From positions 1-64,000 of IMG/VR virus record IMGVR_UViG_3300037507_002575: a stretch of DNA of 64,000 nucleotides; one strand, given 5' to 3'. Of the stretch, positions 2,751 through 13,530 are shown piece by piece (the stretch's first letter is position 1; the number at the start of each line of letters is the position of its first letter). Position numbers and translations under genes: made by a program. Below the pieces are notes generated by a model, which saw nothing but the letters and a program-made list of their open reading frames with translations, had not been told where the DNA came from and did no database searches. This DNA comes from a virus.

Positions 2751-4520
2751 ATGGGTTTAACCAGAGAACAATTACTATTAGAATATTCAAGGTGTATGAA
2801 GAATACACCATACGCTCTTAAGACGTATCTTCAGACTTATGATAACACTCAGTCAAGATACGTCCCATTAGAGTTATTTCCTGACCAAGTTAATTTGGTT
2901 GAGGATTATGAAAAATACAACGAAAATATTGCGTTAAAATACCGTCAGGCGGGTGTATCTACCGTGACTGCGGCTTGGGCAAGTAAAAGACTTGTATTTG
3001 CATCAAAACAAAGACCTGAAAAGGTTTTGATTATTGCAAACAAATTGGATACTGCCGTGGAAATGGCAAACAAAATCCGTGGATTTACCGAACAATGGCC
3101 TTCTTGGGTAGGTGTAGGGTTCTCTCCCGATAAAAACGCAGCAAGACACTTTAAATTAACAAATGGTTGTGAAGTAAAGGCGGTTGCAACATCAAAGGAT
3201 GCACTTCGTGGTTATACCCCTACTATGTTGATATTTGACGAAGCTGCGTATATTGAAGCAGATGGTGATTTCTGGGCTGCCTGTATGGCTTCATTGTCTA
3301 CGGGTGGTAAAGTTGTTGTTGTATCAACACCAAACGGATATGACCCAATTTACTATGAAATCTACGAACAGGCCAATCGTGGGATGAACGATTTCAAAAT
3401 AACAGAAATGTTTTGGTATCGTGACCCACGTTATACAAAAGATTTGTATTTGGTTAAAACGGATGAGATTATTCATTATCTATTAAACCGTGAAGAATAT
3501 ACTGCCGATAGGGTTATTGATTTTTCAGGTCGTGACCCCTACGAAAGAAACTACGATGAGTTAAAGGCTTATTTTGATTTAGGTTATAAACCATGTTCGT
3601 CTTGGTTTGAGGCGATGGTTAAAAAACTTAAGTACGACAAACGTAAGGTTTCTCAGGAATTGGAATGTAATTTCTTGGGTTCGGGTGATAACGTATTTGA
3701 TGCTAATTTAATTAAGAACATTACTGATAATATGATTAAAGAACCTATCAATAAAATGATGGGTGGTGGACTTTGGATATGGAAAGAACCTGAAATGGGT
3801 CACAGATATATTATGGGTGTGGACGTTTCTCGTGGGGATTCTGAAGATTATTCAACATTTCAAATTTATGATTTTGATGAAAGGGAACAAGTTGCTGAAT
3901 ATGTTGGAAAACTTCCTCCTGATGTATTAGCGGAGATTGCCTACAAATGGGGTAATATGTACAACTGTTTTATCGTAATTGATATCACGGGTGGTATGGG
4001 GGTTGCAACGGCAAGAAAACTACAGGAACTTGGATATAAAGATTTATATGTTGATGGTGTTGATTTTGGGAACAAGTGGAAATACGACCCAAAGGCAGCT
4101 GAAAAAATACCTGGTATTAACTTTAACAACAAAAGGGTTCAAATTATTGCTGCACTTGAAGAAAGTTTAAGACATGGTTTAAAAGTTCATTCATCACGAA
4201 TGTTGAATGAAATGAATACGTTTGTTTACATCAATGGAAGACCTGACCACATGAAGGGACAACATGATGATTTAATTATGTCATTGGCGATGGCTGTATA
4301 TGTGTCAGATTCATCTTTTTCACAACTTACAAAGGTTACACAACAAGCAAAAACAATGTTGGAGTCTTGGCAGGTTACATCTTATGACCCACCAAAAGAA
4401 CAATATTTTAATCCATCAATGCCAAATAAACAATATAAAACAAATATTGCTTATCAAAATCAACCAACACAAAAGGATTATCAAGACTATTTATGGGTGT
4501 TCGGCGGATATAAGCGTTGA
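2751..4520 (+). CDS. Terminase large subunit (gp17-like), ATPase and nuclease
   Basis: DNA-packaging motor, 589 residues, close to T4 gp17 (610). The N-terminal ATPase has a Walker A-type loop YRQAGVSTV at residues 64-72, aligned with RQLGKTT of T4, and a Walker B stretch MLIFDEAAY near 159-167. The C-terminal RNase H-like nuclease shows three acidic clusters: GVDVSRGDSED near 355, VIDITGG near 409 and HDDLIMS near 505. The Walker A lysine position is occupied by Val69; the preceding Arg65 may serve instead, as in other terminases with deviant P-loops. It cuts concatemers and translocates DNA through the portal encoded next door. Confidence 0.96.
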   Translation: MGLTREQLLLEYSRCMKNTPYALKTYLQTYDNTQSRYVPLELFPDQVNLVEDYEKYNENIALKYRQAGVSTVTAAWASKRLVFASKQRPEKVLIIANKLDTAVEMANKIRGFTEQWPSWVGVGFSPDKNAARHFKLTNGCEVKAVATSKDALRGYTPTMLIFDEAAYIEADGDFWAACMASLSTGGKVVVVSTPNGYDPIYYEIYEQANRGMNDFKITEMFWYRDPRYTKDLYLVKTDEIIHYLLNREEYTADRVIDFSGRDPYERNYDELKAYFDLGYKPCSSWFEAMVKKLKYDKRKVSQELECNFLGSGDNVFDANLIKNITDNMIKEPINKMMGGGLWIWKEPEMGHRYIMGVDVSRGDSEDYSTFQIYDFDEREQVAEYVGKLPPDVLAEIAYKWGNMYNCFIVIDITGGMGVATARKLQELGYKDLYVDGVDFGNKWKYDPKAAEKIPGINFNNKRVQIIAALEESLRHGLKVHSSRMLNEMNTFVYINGRPDHMKGQHDDLIMSLAMAVYVSDSSFSQLTKVTQQAKTMLESWQVTSYDPPKEQYFNPSMPNKQYKTNIAYQNQPTQKDYQDYLWVFGGYKR

Positions 4521-4550: not shown

Positions 4551-6362
4551 ATGGAAGAAAAAAACTTGACAATATGGCAACGATTGTCCCAAGAACTTGG
4601 ACCAAATTCATTGTTGGGTCAAGACATACCTACTTATAAGTTTGATAAAAAAGAACTATTAAGAACTACTGACAAAGAAGAATATGAAAAACAAAAACTT
4701 CAAGCCAGACAGACTTATTATATTACAAGCCAATGGGCTAAAATTGAAAATAATTTATATTCTCAAGCAGTTTATTATCAACCAACAAGATTGGCATCAT
4801 ACTATGATTATGAGTCAATGGAGTATACTCCCGAAATTTCAGCGGCTTTGGATACATACGCTGAAGAATCTACTACAGTTGACGAGAATGGTTACATGTT
4901 ACAAATATACTCCGATTCTCCAAGAATTAAGGCTGTATTAGGAGATTTGTTTAATAACGCATTGGACATTAATACAAACTTACCAATGTGGACACGTAAT
5001 ACCGCAAAATATGGTGACAACTTCGTGTTTTTAAAGTTAGACCCTGAAAGAGGTGTTGTTGGTTGTTTACAATTACCAAACATTGAAATTGAACGTATTG
5101 AAGTTGGTATGAAAGGTAAAGCAACTTCAGGTATGGGTGGAGCTGTTGCTTCAGGTAGTGATGCTAAAAGTTTAACATTTACTTGGAAAAACAAAAGTTT
5201 GGAATTTAATAGTTGGGAAATAGCACACTTTAGATTATTGGGTGATGATAGAAAACTTCCATATGGTACCGCCATGTTGGAAAAGGCAAGAAGAATTTGG
5301 AAACAATTAATTCTTGCTGAAGATGCAATGTTGGTATATAGAACATCAAGAGCACCTGAAAGACGTGTATTTAAGGTGTTTGTTGGTAACATGGATGACG
5401 CAGATATTCAACCATACGTACAAAGATTTGCACAACAATTTAAGAAAGACCAAATTACTGACCCACAAACAGGAAACGTAGATATGAGATTCAATCAAAT
5501 GGCGGTTGACCAAGATTTCTTTGTACCTGTAAGAGACCCATCGTCTCCAAACCCAATTGAAACTTTACCAGGAGCAACAAACTTATCCGAAATTGCGGAT
5601 ATTGAATATATTCAAAAGAAATTATTAACAGCGTTAAGAATTCCAAAAGCGTTTTTAGGTTTTGAAGAAGTTGTTGGTGATGGTAGAAATTTATCATTAC
5701 AGGATATTCGTTTTGCAAGAACAATTAATAGAATTCAAAAGTCTATGGTTGCGGAACTTAACAAGATTGCAATTGTTCACTTATTTTTATTAGGTTTTGA
5801 AGATGAATTAAATTCATTTCAGTTAAGTTTAACTAACCCATCTAAACAAGCGGACTTATTAACAATTGATGTTTGGAAAGAAAAAATGTTATTGTATAAA
5901 GATGCCGTAACAAAAGTTGAAGGTATTGCACCAACATCTCAAACATGGGCTAAGAAACATATTCTTGGTTTCTCTGATGAAGATATTAAACTTGATTTAC
6001 AACAACAAAGAGTTGAAAAGGCAGTTGCCGCTGAAATTGAAGCAACACCAAATGTTATAACACATACAGGATTATTTGATAATATCGACAAACTTTATGG
6101 TAATACGTCAGGAACAACAGCACCAACAACCCCACCAGCTGAAGGTGGTGAATTTGGGGCTGACTTAGGTGGAGCTCCACCGGCAGGAGGTGAACTTCCA
6201 CCGGCAGAAGGTGAAACTGCAATTACCCCAGAGTCCGTTAAAAAGAATATGAATATATTATTAGAAAGAGATAATGTTTACGGTGTTGAAGAAATTGATT
6301 TGGAAAGAGGTAGACGTTCTTTGGGTATTATTGAAGAACAATTAGGAAAACTGATTGATTGA
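4551..6362 (+). CDS. Portal vertex protein (gp20-like)
   Basis: Dodecameric portal of the head, 603 residues (T4 gp20 has 524). Typical features include the early MEYTPEISAALDTYAEEST segment, the central RRIWKQLILAEDAMLVYR helix and YIQKKLLTALRIPKAFLGF, followed by the clip and stem region. The last 70 residues contain a Gly/Pro/Ala-rich, low-complexity insert (about 520-560) before a final helical segment. It follows the terminase on the same strand, as a packaging pair. Start is ATG 4551. Confidence 0.95.
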   Translation: MEEKNLTIWQRLSQELGPNSLLGQDIPTYKFDKKELLRTTDKEEYEKQKLQARQTYYITSQWAKIENNLYSQAVYYQPTRLASYYDYESMEYTPEISAALDTYAEESTTVDENGYMLQIYSDSPRIKAVLGDLFNNALDINTNLPMWTRNTAKYGDNFVFLKLDPERGVVGCLQLPNIEIERIEVGMKGKATSGMGGAVASGSDAKSLTFTWKNKSLEFNSWEIAHFRLLGDDRKLPYGTAMLEKARRIWKQLILAEDAMLVYRTSRAPERRVFKVFVGNMDDADIQPYVQRFAQQFKKDQITDPQTGNVDMRFNQMAVDQDFFVPVRDPSSPNPIETLPGATNLSEIADIEYIQKKLLTALRIPKAFLGFEEVVGDGRNLSLQDIRFARTINRIQKSMVAELNKIAIVHLFLLGFEDELNSFQLSLTNPSKQADLLTIDVWKEKMLLYKDAVTKVEGIAPTSQTWAKKHILGFSDEDIKLDLQQQRVEKAVAAEIEATPNVITHTGLFDNIDKLYGNTSGTTAPTTPPAEGGEFGADLGGAPPAGGELPPAEGETAITPESVKKNMNILLERDNVYGVEEIDLERGRRSLGIIEEQLGKLID

Positions 6363-6364
6363 TA

Positions 6365-6371
6365 TATTTAT
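6365..6371 (+). promoter_or_regulatory. TATTTAT late-promoter candidate
   Basis: TATTTAT begins just after the portal stop, four bases before ATG 6376. It supports 6376 as the true start of the next gene and would give a nearly leaderless transcript if it acts like a -10 element. Confidence 0.5.
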
Positions 6372-6375
6372 TAAT

Positions 6376-7080
6376 ATGAAATTTGGACAATTACTTAGCA
6401 AGATAGAAGGATTAATGATTAATTCTTATGTGAATGAAACAACAAAAATAGAGTTAAAAAACTTTAAAAAATTAGTATTGGAAAATAAAAATGCCAGTAC
6501 AATGTTTTATATCTATACTGAATTGTCCAAGAAAAAAGGTTATGATAAAACTTTATCTGAATCTTACATCAATGAATCTTTAAGACAAGTAGAAAAAATT
6601 ATTCCAAAATTAAATACTCAAAAAATTGAATATTGGGTTAAAGATGTTGTAAGTGAAAATAATTACAAAGATATTGATAATTTAATTTACAATTCTCCTG
6701 ATAAAATTATGGAGAATGTTGAAAGCAGAAAAACTTTAATTAAGACTTTAAGTGAAACTACTGAAGTTAAAACTGCAATACAACTACCAATGGAAACTTT
6801 ATTGAATATCGCCAATAAAGAAATTAGTTCTTACATTGAAAATTTAGATGAAGATTCAAAAAGAGATTTATCTAAAGTATTGATGACTGAAGATGTGGAA
6901 TTGTCAAAAGAATTTGAAGATTTAAAAGTAAAAACAATTCATTCATTAAGTGGTATTAATGAATCTATGGATGATATCACAACAAAAAAATTACAGGAAA
7001 CTATTAACCAAATTAAAGGTGAAGAGTTTTCTAAAATCAATTATGTAAGATTATACAATTTGTATAACAACATTAATTAA
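6376..7080 (+). CDS. Hypothetical helical protein after the portal gene
   Basis: Unrecognised protein of about 234 residues, Lys/Glu/Asn-rich and apparently all helical. The first in-frame start codon is a TTG at 6355, inside the portal gene, but ATG 6376 (MKFGQLLSKIEGLM) follows a TATTTAT motif and is the better start. In T4 the small prohead core proteins gp67 and gp68 lie between gp20 and gp21; position and charge-rich helical composition would fit a core or scaffold component, but I see no direct similarity. It ends four bases into the convergent bS21 gene. Confidence 0.75.
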   Translation: MKFGQLLSKIEGLMINSYVNETTKIELKNFKKLVLENKNASTMFYIYTELSKKKGYDKTLSESYINESLRQVEKIIPKLNTQKIEYWVKDVVSENNYKDIDNLIYNSPDKIMENVESRKTLIKTLSETTEVKTAIQLPMETLLNIANKEISSYIENLDEDSKRDLSKVLMTEDVELSKEFEDLKVKTIHSLSGINESMDDITTKKLQETINQIKGEEFSKINYVRLYNLYNNIN

Positions 7081-7265
7081 TCCTTAGGTTTTTGAGATTC
7101 AACGTACTTAGCTTTTAATTTTTGAGCTCTACGTGCAACAGATGGTTTTTCATACTGAAGTCTTTCTCTCAACTTTTCATTTTGCTTGGTTTTAATTACC
7201 TTTCCTTTTAATTGTTTCAAGGCTTTTTCCAATGGAGTTTTTTCGTCTATTTTTACTTTTAACAT
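7077..7265 (-). CDS. rpsU: Ribosomal protein bS21, phage-encoded
   Basis: A 62-residue basic protein with the bS21 pattern: VKIDEKTPLEKALKQLKGK, then RERLQYEKPSVARRAQKLKAKY, matching the family's EKPS-x-RR-x(4)-AKY core. Start chosen at the internal ATG 7265 (MLKVKID); the longer frame from 7304 adds 13 residues not typical of bS21. Phage bS21 genes are known; the protein can enter host 30S subunits near the anti-Shine-Dalgarno end of 16S rRNA. It is the only minus-strand gene in the head module, convergent with the gene on its left and divergent from the next, so it probably has its own promoter in 7266-7363. Confidence 0.9.
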   Translation of the reverse strand: MLKVKIDEKTPLEKALKQLKGKVIKTKQNEKLRERLQYEKPSVARRAQKLKAKYVESQKPKD

Positions 7266-7363
7266 ATTATAGTAAATAATACAAAGTTGGTCAAAATTTG
7301 ACAATAGAATAAAATTAGATTATTTTTTTTCAAACAATAAACAATTTATACACATGATTATTA

Positions 7364-7810
7364 ATGAAAAAAGGAAAAACATCACGAATTGTAGGATTCA
7401 ACAATTCAAAAGTGAGTTATGGAACAGTTGATTCCAAAAATTTTAAATCAGTTTATCTTAATTTACAAAGTTGGGTTTCACCAAAACAAAGTTATGACAA
7501 TTGGGAGAGAATAGTATCAAATTTTAGTAGACAAATAAAACACACAATATTTGAAATATTAGACCCCACATTTTTTAAAGACAACTATATTGTTGATTTG
7601 GATTTGAGAACTAGCGGAATTGTTTATGGTAAAAAAAGTTTTATGAATTTGGAAATTACTTTATTTTTATCACAGGAAGTGGATTTCAAAGATACAATTC
7701 TTAAAGATAAATTAAAAAGAATTGCCAAAGAAATTTATATTGAAAACTTCAAAAAGAACGAGTATTTTGATTTTACACTATCTAAAAAGAGCAAAGAAGA
7801 AGCATCCTAG
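7364..7810 (+). CDS. Hypothetical 148-residue head-module protein
   Basis: Unrecognised. It starts with a basic MKKGKTSRIVG segment and continues as a mixed alpha/beta sequence with a conserved-looking DLRTSGIVYGKKSFMNLEI stretch near residues 83-103, ending in a Lys/Glu-rich helix. No membrane segment. It lies between the divergent bS21 gene and the prohead protease gene, which begins 22 bases after its stop, so a head-assembly role is likely from context only. Confidence 0.7.
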   Translation: MKKGKTSRIVGFNNSKVSYGTVDSKNFKSVYLNLQSWVSPKQSYDNWERIVSNFSRQIKHTIFEILDPTFFKDNYIVDLDLRTSGIVYGKKSFMNLEITLFLSQEVDFKDTILKDKLKRIAKEIYIENFKKNEYFDFTLSKKSKEEAS

Positions 7811-7817
7811 TATTTAT
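7811..7817 (+). promoter_or_regulatory. TATTTAT late-promoter candidate
   Basis: TATTTAT directly after the stop of the previous gene, 15 bases before the ATG of the prohead protease. Confidence 0.5.
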
Positions 7818-7832
7818 TACTAAAACATACGT

Positions 7833-8564
7833 ATGAAAATATTAGGACCTACCGAGACAGGTAAAGGAATATTGATTGAAATGGACGCAGGATATGTGTC
7901 ACCATCTCATGAATTTAATAAAAAGATGCTTGAAGAAAATCACAAGAACTTCTTGGATTATTCAAAACCTTTTGAATTCTATGCCGTACTTCAAAAATAC
8001 AACACACCAAACCGTAATGGTAGAGTGTATCCTGAAAGAATCTTAAAACGTGAATCTGAGAATTATAAAAAGATGATTCAAAAAGGAACATCTCTTTCAG
8101 AATTAAATCACCCTGAATCATCATTAATTGACCTTGACCGTGTGTCTCACATCATCAATGATATATGGTGGGACGGACATATCCTTATGGGTAAGTTACG
8201 TCTTCTAACATCACCAGGATTTCATGAGAGAGGGATTGTATCTACAAAGGGTGACCAAGCAGCAAACTTGTTAAGACAAGGTGTTACTTTGGGTATATCT
8301 TCACGTGGGGTTGGTTCTTTAAAAAAGAGTGGTGAACAGAATGAAGTACAAGATGATTTTGAATTAATCTGTTTTGATTTGGTATCTTCACCATCTACAC
8401 CAGGAGCATATTTGTTTACAAACCCTGATGACAGAAACAAATTTGAAGAAAATTTAGAAGAAGAAAAAGTTTCAAGAATGTCTCCAATCGAACAGGAAAG
8501 TGGAACAAAAATGAACCGCTCTATTGACTTATTAAAAAAATTAAACCATTATTTGGACAGATAA
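7833..8564 (+). CDS. Prohead maturation protease (gp21-like)
   Basis: Serine protease of the herpesvirus assemblin/T4 gp21 type, 243 residues (T4 gp21 has 212). SELNHPESS places a candidate catalytic His at residue 93, and LGISSRGVGS supplies the nucleophile (Ser156 or Ser157); PNRNGRVYP near residue 60 is also characteristic of the family. In the prohead it digests the scaffold and trims capsid proteins after (Ile/Leu)-x-Glu sites, one of which is visible in the downstream capsid protein. The scaffold and capsid genes follow. Confidence 0.94.
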   Translation: MKILGPTETGKGILIEMDAGYVSPSHEFNKKMLEENHKNFLDYSKPFEFYAVLQKYNTPNRNGRVYPERILKRESENYKKMIQKGTSLSELNHPESSLIDLDRVSHIINDIWWDGHILMGKLRLLTSPGFHERGIVSTKGDQAANLLRQGVTLGISSRGVGSLKKSGEQNEVQDDFELICFDLVSSPSTPGAYLFTNPDDRNKFEENLEEEKVSRMSPIEQESGTKMNRSIDLLKKLNHYLDR

Positions 8565-8869: not shown

Positions 8870-8876
8870 TATTTAT
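8870..8876 (+). promoter_or_regulatory. TATTTAT late-promoter candidate
   Basis: ATATTTATATG lies between the terminator and the scaffold gene, 23 bases before its ATG. Because a terminator precedes it, a promoter is needed here, which strengthens the assignment of the motif. Confidence 0.6.
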
Positions 8877-8899: not shown

Positions 8900-10489
8900 A
8901 TGACAGAAAAAAAGTCGTTAGTTGAGGAAGCACTACTACAAATGAAAAATTTGGAACAAGTAGTTGCCGAAAATGCAAAAGGAATACTTGCTTCTACAAT
9001 GAAGGAAGAAATCTCAGAACTAGTAAAAGAGTCTTTGAAAAATGAGGCTGAAGATGAATCAATGGATGTTGAAATGGATGAACAATCGGAAGATGAGTTA
9101 GACATGGATATTGATATGGATTCTGATGATGAAGAAATGGATGATGTTGAAATGGACATTGATATGGATTCTGACGATGATGAATCGGATGATGAACTTG
9201 AAATGGACTTTGATATGGATTCTGATGATACACTACCAATTGACCTTACAAACGCATCCGATGATGAAATCTTAAAGGTTTTCAAATCTATGAGTGATGA
9301 AGATGGTATCATTGTTAAACAAGATGGTAACAACATTACTTTAAATGATGAAGACGAAGATGTTGAATATATTATTCAAACTGAAAGTGACATGGAAGAA
9401 GAAACTATGGAAGAAATGGATGAAGAAGAAGAATTATCAGATGAGGATTTAGATTCTATGATGGCTGATATTTTTGGTGAAGAGATGAACATGGACGAAG
9501 AATCTATGTATGAAGAAGATATGGATGAAGAAGATATGGATGATGAGGTAGTATATGAAATTGAAATGGATGAAGACGAAGATATGGATGATTCTGATGA
9601 TTCAGATGAAAGTATGTCTGAAAGTAAAATGACAATTAAACCAGTTATGGGTAAATTAACTAAATCCTCTTTAACTAACAAAGCTAAAAAAATGGAAACT
9701 AAAGAAGGGTCAATGATGAGTAAACCTGTAGTAGGTAAAGGTGTTAAAACCGGAAGTGCTAAATTTGAATATAAAGAAGGTAGAAAAATGGAAACCAAAG
9801 AAGCGGCTATTGAACCAAAAGGTAAGGCTAAAGGAGTTGGTATGAATTTGAAACCTAAGAAATTTGAATACACTGAGGCTGAAATGGAAGAAAAATACGG
9901 TTCTAAAAAACACGAATACAGACGTAAGGATGTTGATGGTGTTGAAAAGAAAGCTGGTGAAAAAGGTGGTCATTACAAAGATTACGAAAAAGAGGAAACT
10001 AAAGAAGCTGCTAGAACATTAGGTAATGGAACTAGAAATTACGCTGAAAGAAAAGGTTTACCTAAAATGAAAGTAATTCCAAATCAAGCTCTTGCTGAAG
10101 AAGTTGAAAGATTGAGAGAGAAGAATGAAGAATACAGAAAAGCACTTAATATTTTCAGAGAAAAATTAAATGAAGTTGCTGTGTTTAATTCTAACTTGGC
10201 TTATGCTACAAGATTGTTCACTGAACATACAACAACAAAACAAGAGAAAATTAATATCTTAAGAAGATTTGATGATGTTGAATCATTAAAAGAATCAAAA
10301 ACTTTATACTCATCAATTAAAGGAGAATTAAACACAACAAACAGTACTCAAAGTGTTGTAACAGAATCTATTGAAAAAATTGGAAAATCTCCAGCATCAG
10401 GTTCTTCACAAAACTTAATTGAGTCAAAAACGTATGAAAATCCACAATTTTTAAGAATGAAGGATATTATGCAAAAAATACAAAAATAA
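8900..10489 (+). CDS. Prohead scaffold/core protein (gp22-like)
   Basis: Scaffolding core protein, 529 residues, about twice T4 gp22. The N-terminal helix is followed by roughly 200 residues dominated by Asp, Glu, Met and Ser, then a basic section with repeated METKE and KFEY motifs (about 245-375). The C-terminal part carries the typical coiled coil (EEVERLREKNEEYRKAL, near 400) and the NSNLAYATRLFTEH motif near 430, which identify the family. It would be degraded by the gp21-like protease. It sits immediately before the capsid gene, as in T4. The extended acidic repeat region is unusual. Confidence 0.88.
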   Translation: MTEKKSLVEEALLQMKNLEQVVAENAKGILASTMKEEISELVKESLKNEAEDESMDVEMDEQSEDELDMDIDMDSDDEEMDDVEMDIDMDSDDDESDDELEMDFDMDSDDTLPIDLTNASDDEILKVFKSMSDEDGIIVKQDGNNITLNDEDEDVEYIIQTESDMEEETMEEMDEEEELSDEDLDSMMADIFGEEMNMDEESMYEEDMDEEDMDDEVVYEIEMDEDEDMDDSDDSDESMSESKMTIKPVMGKLTKSSLTNKAKKMETKEGSMMSKPVVGKGVKTGSAKFEYKEGRKMETKEAAIEPKGKAKGVGMNLKPKKFEYTEAEMEEKYGSKKHEYRRKDVDGVEKKAGEKGGHYKDYEKEETKEAARTLGNGTRNYAERKGLPKMKVIPNQALAEEVERLREKNEEYRKALNIFREKLNEVAVFNSNLAYATRLFTEHTTTKQEKINILRRFDDVESLKESKTLYSSIKGELNTTNSTQSVVTESIEKIGKSPASGSSQNLIESKTYENPQFLRMKDIMQKIQK

Positions 10490-12462: not shown

Positions 12463-12663
12463 ATGGCTTGTAAAAAATCAACAATAACAAATACTGCTTC
12501 AAGTATTATAGTAATATCATACACAAGATGTGATGATAATTTTGTAGTTAATAATTATGAAATTCAACCAGGTGAAACCGTTAATATTTGGTATGTGACC
12601 GGTACATTTAGAACGGCATTTGCGGGTGTTACACTAACAAATACGGTAGATTGGCCTCAATAA
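12463..12663 (+). CDS. Small surface-type protein, paralogue of the next gene
   Basis: A 66-residue protein beginning MACKKSTITN, with a short beta-rich pattern ([28 protein letters not shown]) and ending in DWPQ. It is clearly homologous along its whole length to the first 66 residues of the next gene, so it is the stalkless member of a tandem duplicate pair. Its position directly after the major capsid gene, where other T4-like phages often keep head decoration genes, suggests a capsid accessory protein; I know of no assigned function. Confidence 0.85.
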   Translation: MACKKSTITNTASSIIVISYTRCDDNFVVNNYEIQPGETVNIWYVTGTFRTAFAGVTLTNTVDWPQ

Positions 12664-12672
12664 TAATTTGAC

Positions 12673-13530
12673 ATGGCTTGTAAAAAAAGTATAATTACCA
12701 ACAATTTAGGTAGAATAAGTGTTATTTCTTATACAAGATGTAATGATAATTTTGTTGTTAATAATTATGAAATTCAAATAGGTGAAACTGTAAACATTTG
12801 GTATGTTGATGGTACGTATAAAACTGCGTTTTCAAATTTAACAGTAGATTCTACAATTGAATGGCCACCCGTTACTCAAACTCCAAGTTCTTCATCTACT
12901 ACGCCAACTCCAACACCAAGTAATACCTCAACTCCATCAGTAACTCCAAGTGTAACACCAACTAACACATCAACACCTACGGTTACTCCAACTAATACTG
13001 TAACTTCAACAAATACACCAACACCTACTAATACGGAAACTCCTACACCTACAACAACTAATACGGAAACTCCAACTAACACACCAACTAATACGGAAAC
13101 TCCAACTAACACACCAACACCTACTGTAACAGAAACTCCGACTAATACACCAACACCTACTGTAACAGAAACTCCGACTAATACACCAACACCAACTAAT
13201 ACATCAACACCTACGGTTACTCCAACTAATACTGTAACTTCAACAAATACACCAACACCAACACCTACTAATACGGAAACTCCTACACCTACAACAACTA
13301 ATACGGAAACTCCAACTAACACACCAACACCTACTGTAACAGAAACTCCGACTAATACACCAACACCAACTAATACTGAAACACCAACTGAGACTCCGAC
13401 ACCTACTAATACATCAACACCTACGGTTACTCCAACTAATACTGAAACACCAACTACTACACCTACGGTTACTCCAACTAATACTGAAACACCAACTGAG
13501 ACTCCAACACCTACACCTACTGACTCATAA
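12673..13530 (+). CDS. Surface-type domain with long Thr-Pro stalk
   Basis: The first 66 residues are a paralogue of the preceding protein ([10 protein letters not shown] ... IEWPP). The remaining 220 or so residues are an almost pure Thr/Pro/Asn/Ser/Glu/Val repeat built on TPTNT and ETPT units, with no hydrophobic core. Such a chain should be extended and rod-like, resembling a mucin stalk. It is probably a head- or tail-surface protein made late. The phage's many glycosyltransferases make O-glycosylation of the Thr residues a reasonable hypothesis. Long open frames on the opposite strand are by-products of the repeat. Confidence 0.85.
12880..13527 (+). repeat. Thr-Pro coding repeat array
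   Basis: Degenerate repeats of ACACCAACACCTACTAAT-like units. A block of about 120 bases at 12967-13088 recurs at 13201-13328, differing mainly by a six-base insertion, so segmental duplication as well as unit expansion shaped the array. Similar units occur in the 41735-45652 gene. Confidence 0.92.

Follow-up and report, generated by a model that had tools for sequence, protein, structure and literature searches.

A gene for ribosomal protein bS21 lies antisense within the T4-like head gene block of the phage DNA analysed here (the window, a stretch of 64,000 nucleotides), and its leader is free of the strong Shine-Dalgarno (SD) sequence that precedes rpsU in Flavobacteriaceae. The best explanation, and one that the data modestly favor, is that this is an accessory, late-type gene of a Bacteroidota phage, whose feedback-proof product swaps into ribosomes and silences host rpsU.

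The bS21 gene within the head block

To our knowledge, phages encode no other ribosomal protein as often as bS21. The copy described here is the single bS21 in the whole 65,849-base linear IMG/VR record, and it lies among the following genes.

2751-4520, plus strand: terminase large subunit (TerL), by Pfam and PHROG matches
4551-6362, plus strand: portal protein of the T4 gp20 family, by Pfam match
6376-7080, plus strand: convergent neighbor of 234 aa, whose stop and that of bS21 overlap by 4 nt; TATTTAT 11 nt upstream of its start codon
7077-7265, minus strand: phage bS21 (rpsU homologue), 62 aa, with Tyr at position 54 and the signature KVIKTKQN at 22-29; Pfam, NCBIfam and PHROG matches
7364-7810, plus strand: divergent neighbor of 148 aa with a predicted alpha/beta fold; probably, from its position, the bS21_CN described by Chen et al. 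(2022)
7833-8564, plus strand: prohead protease (Peptidase_S77); TATTTAT 22 nt before its ATG
8900-10489, plus strand: scaffold-like gene of the protease-capsid interval, so named for its position; TATTTAT 30 nt upstream of its start codon
10526-12373, plus strand: major capsid protein of the T4 gp23 family, by Pfam match

In this order, which also includes a 70-aa gene between the protease and the scaffold-like gene, one extra gene on each side separates bS21 from the portal (6376-7080) and from the protease (7364-7810). The bS21 reading frame opens with ATG and encodes the N-terminal stretch MLKVKIDEKTPLEKALKQLKGKVIKTKQ; the protein scores 38.5 bits against PF01165, above the curated Pfam cut-off of 27, and 32.3 bits against NCBIfam TIGR00030, above the cut-off of 28.95, and it also matches phrog_21469 (E 2.7e-05). 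The product is probably a genuine bS21 destined for ribosomes. Its nearest solved structures by PDB sequence search are 9i5v_9 and 7jil_z, 7JIL being the ribosome of Flavobacterium johnsoniae (Chen et al., 2022; PMC9723584). This proximity and the SD-less leaders suggest a probable host among the Bacteroidota, perhaps in freshwater; among the kin of the capsid protein are Flavobacterium phages and, besides these, a Microcystis phage. No tRNA genes were found in the 64,000-nt window.

The 148-aa neighbor is confidently modeled as a small alpha/beta fold (pLDDT 89.7, pTM 0.84) for which no confident PDB match was found, the best being VIA at Z 7.7; its one viral match is to Myoviridae sp. ctPuP5. 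A DsbA-like identity was considered for this protein and is disbelieved, as the profile match is weak (E 0.012). Elsewhere in the window, the protein encoded at 12673-13530 has a long PT/NT-rich repeat tail and adjoins a short paralogue (12463-12663), both downstream of the capsid gene. The region 24334-51308 holds PhoH and an extended series of genes, among them members of the UDP-glucose dehydrogenase, nucleotide-sugar epimerase, aminotransferase and glycosyltransferase families, which suggests surface-sugar remodeling.

Conserved place and orientation among relatives

At least 554 IMG/VR relatives of the phage bS21 were confirmed among at least 599 pattern matches, and since these have the same neighbors the locus is not a product of chance. 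In all of the best 80 of these relatives, which served as the close-relative set, bS21 lies on the strand opposite to every adjacent structural gene found; together with the family matches, this bears out the preliminary description, which had placed a bS21 gene antisense between the portal and protease genes. A search with host bS21 as query returned 31 further loci, 27 of them with the same place and antisense orientation. The spacing is also constrained: in all 103 loci measured, 92-108 nt separate the ATG of bS21 from that of the 148-aa gene, and in 79 of 102 loci the stops of bS21 and its convergent neighbor overlap by 4-9 nt, the stops of the remainder lying 0-31 nt apart (15 loci) or across larger gaps (8 loci). 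A bS21 identical at 94% sits on a record of 294,914 bases.

Three of the 31 host-query loci (L182, L190 and L191) represent a different T4-like lineage in which bS21 is on the same strand as the portal, protease or capsid gene, and these were excluded from the residue alignment, the SD test and the leader-motif count. Another locus from the host query, L162, has no structural gene beside bS21; it was rejected as a phage with host-like bS21, as its integrase-type recombinase, restriction-enzyme and YgjP-like neighbors suggest bacterial DNA, and it was left out of the residue, SD and motif counts. Among 50,697 annotated phage records, the bS21 query matched only four by tblastn (LR756501/LR756503, LR756502 and LR745206), all from very large uncultured phages of 634-735 kb.

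Residues shared with and distinct from host bS21

When 125 distinct phage proteins are aligned with 54 proteins of Flavobacteriaceae type, two kinds of position can be told apart. Position 54, reported as aromatic, is retained throughout the phage set (125/125; Y 108, H 13, F 4) and is Tyr in all 54 host proteins, and the window protein has Y54 at the place of Tyr54 in F. johnsoniae; the reading of the protein as a bS21 of Bacteroidota type is supported. Lys at 22 and 40 and Arg at 46 are invariant in both sets. Position 23, on the other hand, is V or I in phages and F in 54/54 host proteins; position 24 is mostly I or Y in phages and D in 54/54; position 27 is basic (K or R) in 125/125 phage proteins and G in 54/54; and position 28 is Q in 123 of 125 phage proteins and T or V in the host. 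It would therefore appear from the alignment that the part of bS21 that holds the 16S tail in the published F. johnsoniae model is kept, and that the N-terminal half differs in a fixed way.

The Shine-Dalgarno contrast and a model for bS21 exchange

The strength of each SD was taken as the energy with which the 25 nt before the start pair with the 16S tail, the latter being read from a pair of Flavobacterium genomes. By this measure, Flavobacteriaceae rpsU has a very strong SD, with dG at or below -17.6 in 80 of 80 genes (25 distinct leaders), whereas the phage bS21 leaders have a median of -1.8. The phage sample comprised 232 bS21 loci, some of them the same contig twice, which reduced to 109 distinct leaders; 106 of these lie above -7 and none at or below -13.

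7266-7290, minus strand: SD-less leader of bS21, which pairs with the 16S tail of Flavobacterium at -2.0

The window value is thus far above the -13 kcal/mol below which McNutt et al. (2023) recognize an extended SD. The strongest phage leaders are two distinct ones at -12.2 (L304/L306 and L311), followed by L312 at -7.4. The loci L304, L306 and L311 form a small clade with AGGAGG before bS21; with an assumed 16S tail, their other genes show no strong SD, and bS21 stands out among them as rpsU does in the host, perhaps through a remnant or a regain of host-type regulation. An alternative anti-SD used by some Flavobacteriales (UCUCA) was tried and set aside, as the phage bS21 leaders pair with it no better.

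That the phage genes are without SDs had been noted in the preliminary description and holds for the window, where 59 genes of at least 100 aa have a mean pairing energy of -1.93, with 3 at or below -7. The further proposal that bS21 steers ribosomes toward SD-less mRNA as such fails against the host, where 63 genes of a Flavobacterium contig have a mean of -2.33, with 1 at or below -7. SD-lessness gives no discrimination because nearly all Bacteroidota host mRNAs are already SD-less, and as phage and host mRNAs are equally so, a bS21 that hides the anti-SD cannot favor either in that way. The host gene predicted to be strongly affected by anti-SD hiding is rpsU itself. Phylum-wide, a strong SD (at or below -13) was read at 19 of 30 rpsU genes, these being the 30 best-scoring of 148 genomes, with some starts approximate and the 16S tail assumed; the feedback argument consequently holds only for hosts with a strong rpsU SD.

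In F. johnsoniae, bS21 is essential, ribosomes without it start poorly on ordinary mRNAs, and an extended SD lets such ribosomes translate rpsU, constituting an autoregulatory feedback (McNutt et al., 2023; PMC9976891). The model favored here proposes that phage bS21 enters host 30S subunits and displaces host bS21. The phage protein retains those C-terminal residues, the aromatic one at 54 among them, that keep the 16S tail out of reach in Bacteroidota. Because the phage mRNA is without an rpsU-type SD, bS21-bearing ribosomes would go on translating the phage copy, and as phage bS21 fills the ribosomes and hides the anti-SD, the host feedback would turn host rpsU off; phage mRNA may benefit in turn. 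The phage protein may thereby both escape and exploit the host feedback loop, with host bS21 replaced without any protease, a reading that we put forward tentatively. If true, phage bS21 would repress host rpsU and spare SD-less genes. It has been speculated that host autoregulation replenishes bS21 against phage (McNutt et al., 2023), and an anti-SD-hiding phage bS21 would block that. Against this model stand the persistence of relatives without bS21 (see below), the AGGAGG of the L304/L306/L311 clade, and the behavior of the only phage bS21 that has been assayed, that of Pelagibacter phage HTVC008M, which enters Escherichia coli ribosomes and nearly stops them, leaving about 5% of translation activity (Mizuno et al., 2019; PMC6375957).

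A simpler possibility, although a somewhat doubtful one, is that the phage only tops up a loosely bound and exchangeable protein late in infection, keeping ribosomes complete as host synthesis falls, with no selectivity. bS21 is indeed among the exchangeable ribosomal proteins (Mizuno et al., 2019), its essentiality and the poor starts made by ribosomes without it (McNutt et al., 2023) also speak for this, and freedom from feedback would suit a supplier. However, mere supply does not explain why phage proteins are fixed for their own signature at 23-28, a stretch in which host proteins are just as fixed. It is this signature, with its differences at 23, 24, 27 and 28 across 125 distinct phage proteins, that speaks for the specialized ribosome of Chen et al. 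(2022), a reading near to that of the preliminary description, in which the altered N-terminal half of phage bS21 shifts the mRNA path such that phage messages are preferred; N-terminal divergence is reported in that paper also (PMC9723584). Such selective translation through altered contacts is nonetheless unlikely, as phage and host leaders are alike in SD energy and A-richness, no feature separating them was found, and the assayed HTVC008M protein impaired translation. That same impairment could be read as host shut-off, whereby phage bS21 poisons ribosomes that phage factors then restore for phage mRNA, but HTVC008M and E. coli are a heterologous pair and the late structural genes need active ribosomes, making this very improbable.

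Optional presence at a fixed site

Scans with a profile of the 148-aa protein and with the protease located 160 loci, 145 of which had enough sequence to be tested. Antisense bS21 is present in 133 of these 145 relatives, including 4 initially set apart merely because the open frame overlaps its neighbor, and is missing in 12 that have the rest of the block intact; in 11 of these, 66-87 nt separate the two neighbors. bS21 was found elsewhere in none of six records without it at this site (0/6; fragments of up to 105.7 kb). In a quick protease tree of 140 rows, which omits L303, L190 and L191 as long branches and does not tell gain from loss, bS21 presence changes five times, at least three of them by well-supported branches. 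The gene is thus optional and dispensable somewhere, and a strict linkage of bS21 with the 148-aa neighbor is rejected, since the 12 relatives keep that neighbor without bS21. A role outside the ribosome, for instance as a virion protein that binds RNA and is packaged into the head, is suggested by the position in the head block and was raised by Chen et al. (2022), but these same relatives indicate that the head does not need bS21, and we regard it as the most improbable reading of all. For the feedback model, the bS21-less phages and those with an SD before bS21 provide natural controls.

In one locus (L271, positions 3371-4000, a gap of 630 nt), a different small antisense reading frame with a lipoprotein-like start (LLLSSC) lies at the bS21 site, which may be a general cargo site.

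Upstream elements and putative late expression

The most enriched 7-mer before window genes is TATTTAT, which occurs in 16 of 69 leaders, with 11 sites in 60,354 coding bases. For genes of at least 100 aa, it precedes 14 of 59 window genes (simulated mean 2.8, maximum 10) versus 2 of 63 host genes. The elements discussed here are as follows.

6365-6371, 7811-7817, 8870-8876 and others, plus strand: TATTTAT sites before structural genes, in window leaders
7272-7278, minus strand: TATTTAC, one mismatch from TATTTAT, starting 13 nt upstream of the bS21 start codon; candidate late-promoter element
7297-7326, plus strand: promoter-like element of the 148-aa gene (TTTGACA, 17 nt, TATTTT), by sequence
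7336-7342, plus strand: AATAAAC element, within the leader that precedes the 148-aa gene

The sites upstream of the protease, 234-aa and scaffold-like genes are conserved across distant relatives. Of 120 distinct leaders of phage bS21, 64 contain TATTTAT (simulated mean 7.5, maximum 17) and 109 have TATTT within 35 nt (simulated mean 43, maximum 56), counts in which the relatedness of the sequences overstates independence. In the cultured Flavobacterium phage immuto, 17 of the 49 annotated genes have TATTTAT upstream, at -24 to -33 in 12 cases, and there are 24 forward sites in 48 kb. We take TATTTAT as a candidate late-promoter element, with an RNA element as the alternative that these sequences would also allow; a literature search for TATTTAT in phage late promoters found no paper. 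If the element is spaced from the transcription start much as the T4 late promoter is, bS21 mRNA in the window would start on the ATG or no more than a few bases from it. A leaderless bS21 mRNA is only hinted at by the promoter-like motif that begins 13 nt before the ATG, and late timing in this phage may be supposed from the motif shared with the structural genes.

The host-type promoter TAnnTTTG was rejected as the driver of the block, with 131 window sites versus 120 expected and presence in 2 of 59 window leaders versus 20 of 63 in the host. The spacer between bS21 and the 148-aa gene contains TTTGAC in 19 of 19 aligned cases; because TTTGAC and AATAAAC are retained where bS21 is missing (in 9/12 and 12/12 relatives, respectively), both probably belong to the 148-aa gene. 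Similarly, GTCAAANTTTT was rejected as a bS21 element, being unrepeated elsewhere, and more likely serves the divergent 148-aa gene since its TTTGAC core outlasts bS21.

Comparison with known systems

Both the arrangement and the hypothesis of ribosome takeover are already published. Chen et al. (2022; PMC9723584) described, in 47 genomes, a reverse-strand bS21 between two hypothetical genes within a block of TerL/portal and protease/MCP genes, predicted Bacteroidetes hosts, and noted an aromatic residue at 54 (Tyr54 retained) and a divergent N-terminal helix. Lake RNA showed bS21 to be highly expressed with structural genes, i.e., late, and the hypothesis was advanced that, late in infection, the phage protein takes the place of host bS21 and selects phage transcripts. 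The freshwater Bacteroidetes phages of that work (clades a-e) share with the present phage the antisense site, the aromatic 54, AT-richness and probably a large genome, as the 294,914-base record with the 94%-identical bS21 suggests, and in the features tested there, as far as the portions of the paper available here extend, no difference is apparent. Their genomes are of 293-331 kb with a GC of 31.0-33.7%; the present record is a linear fragment of 65.8 kb with a GC of 28-33% in four quarters. In those portions, SD lack, gene loss in close kin and TATTTAT were not found, and bS21_CN is given as undetected in two bS21-less outgroups, whereas the 148-aa neighbor persists here without bS21.

Flavobacterium phage immuto (NC_055915, Immutovirus) has the same T4-like block of TerL, portal, hypotheticals, protease and MCP, as well as TATTTAT; however, no bS21 is annotated in its block, it is absent from the four records matched by tblastn, and no clear relative of the 148-aa protein was found in it. 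HTVC008M likewise has a phage bS21 in a large myovirus, but of proteobacterial type and host, and a separate acquisition according to Mizuno et al. (2019; PMC6375957). The rpsU of F. johnsoniae encodes a member of the same family, with the same aromatic residue helping to hide the anti-SD, but through its extended SD it needs a free anti-SD, whereas the phage bS21 gene is without an SD (McNutt et al., 2023; PMC9976891, for the host gene). The additions made here to published work are the SD contrast between host rpsU and phage bS21, the equal SD-lessness of host and phage mRNAs, the optional presence of the gene, and the TATTTAT motif that its leader shares with structural genes. In open-licence PMC literature, no statement was found that phage bS21 is without the rpsU SD.
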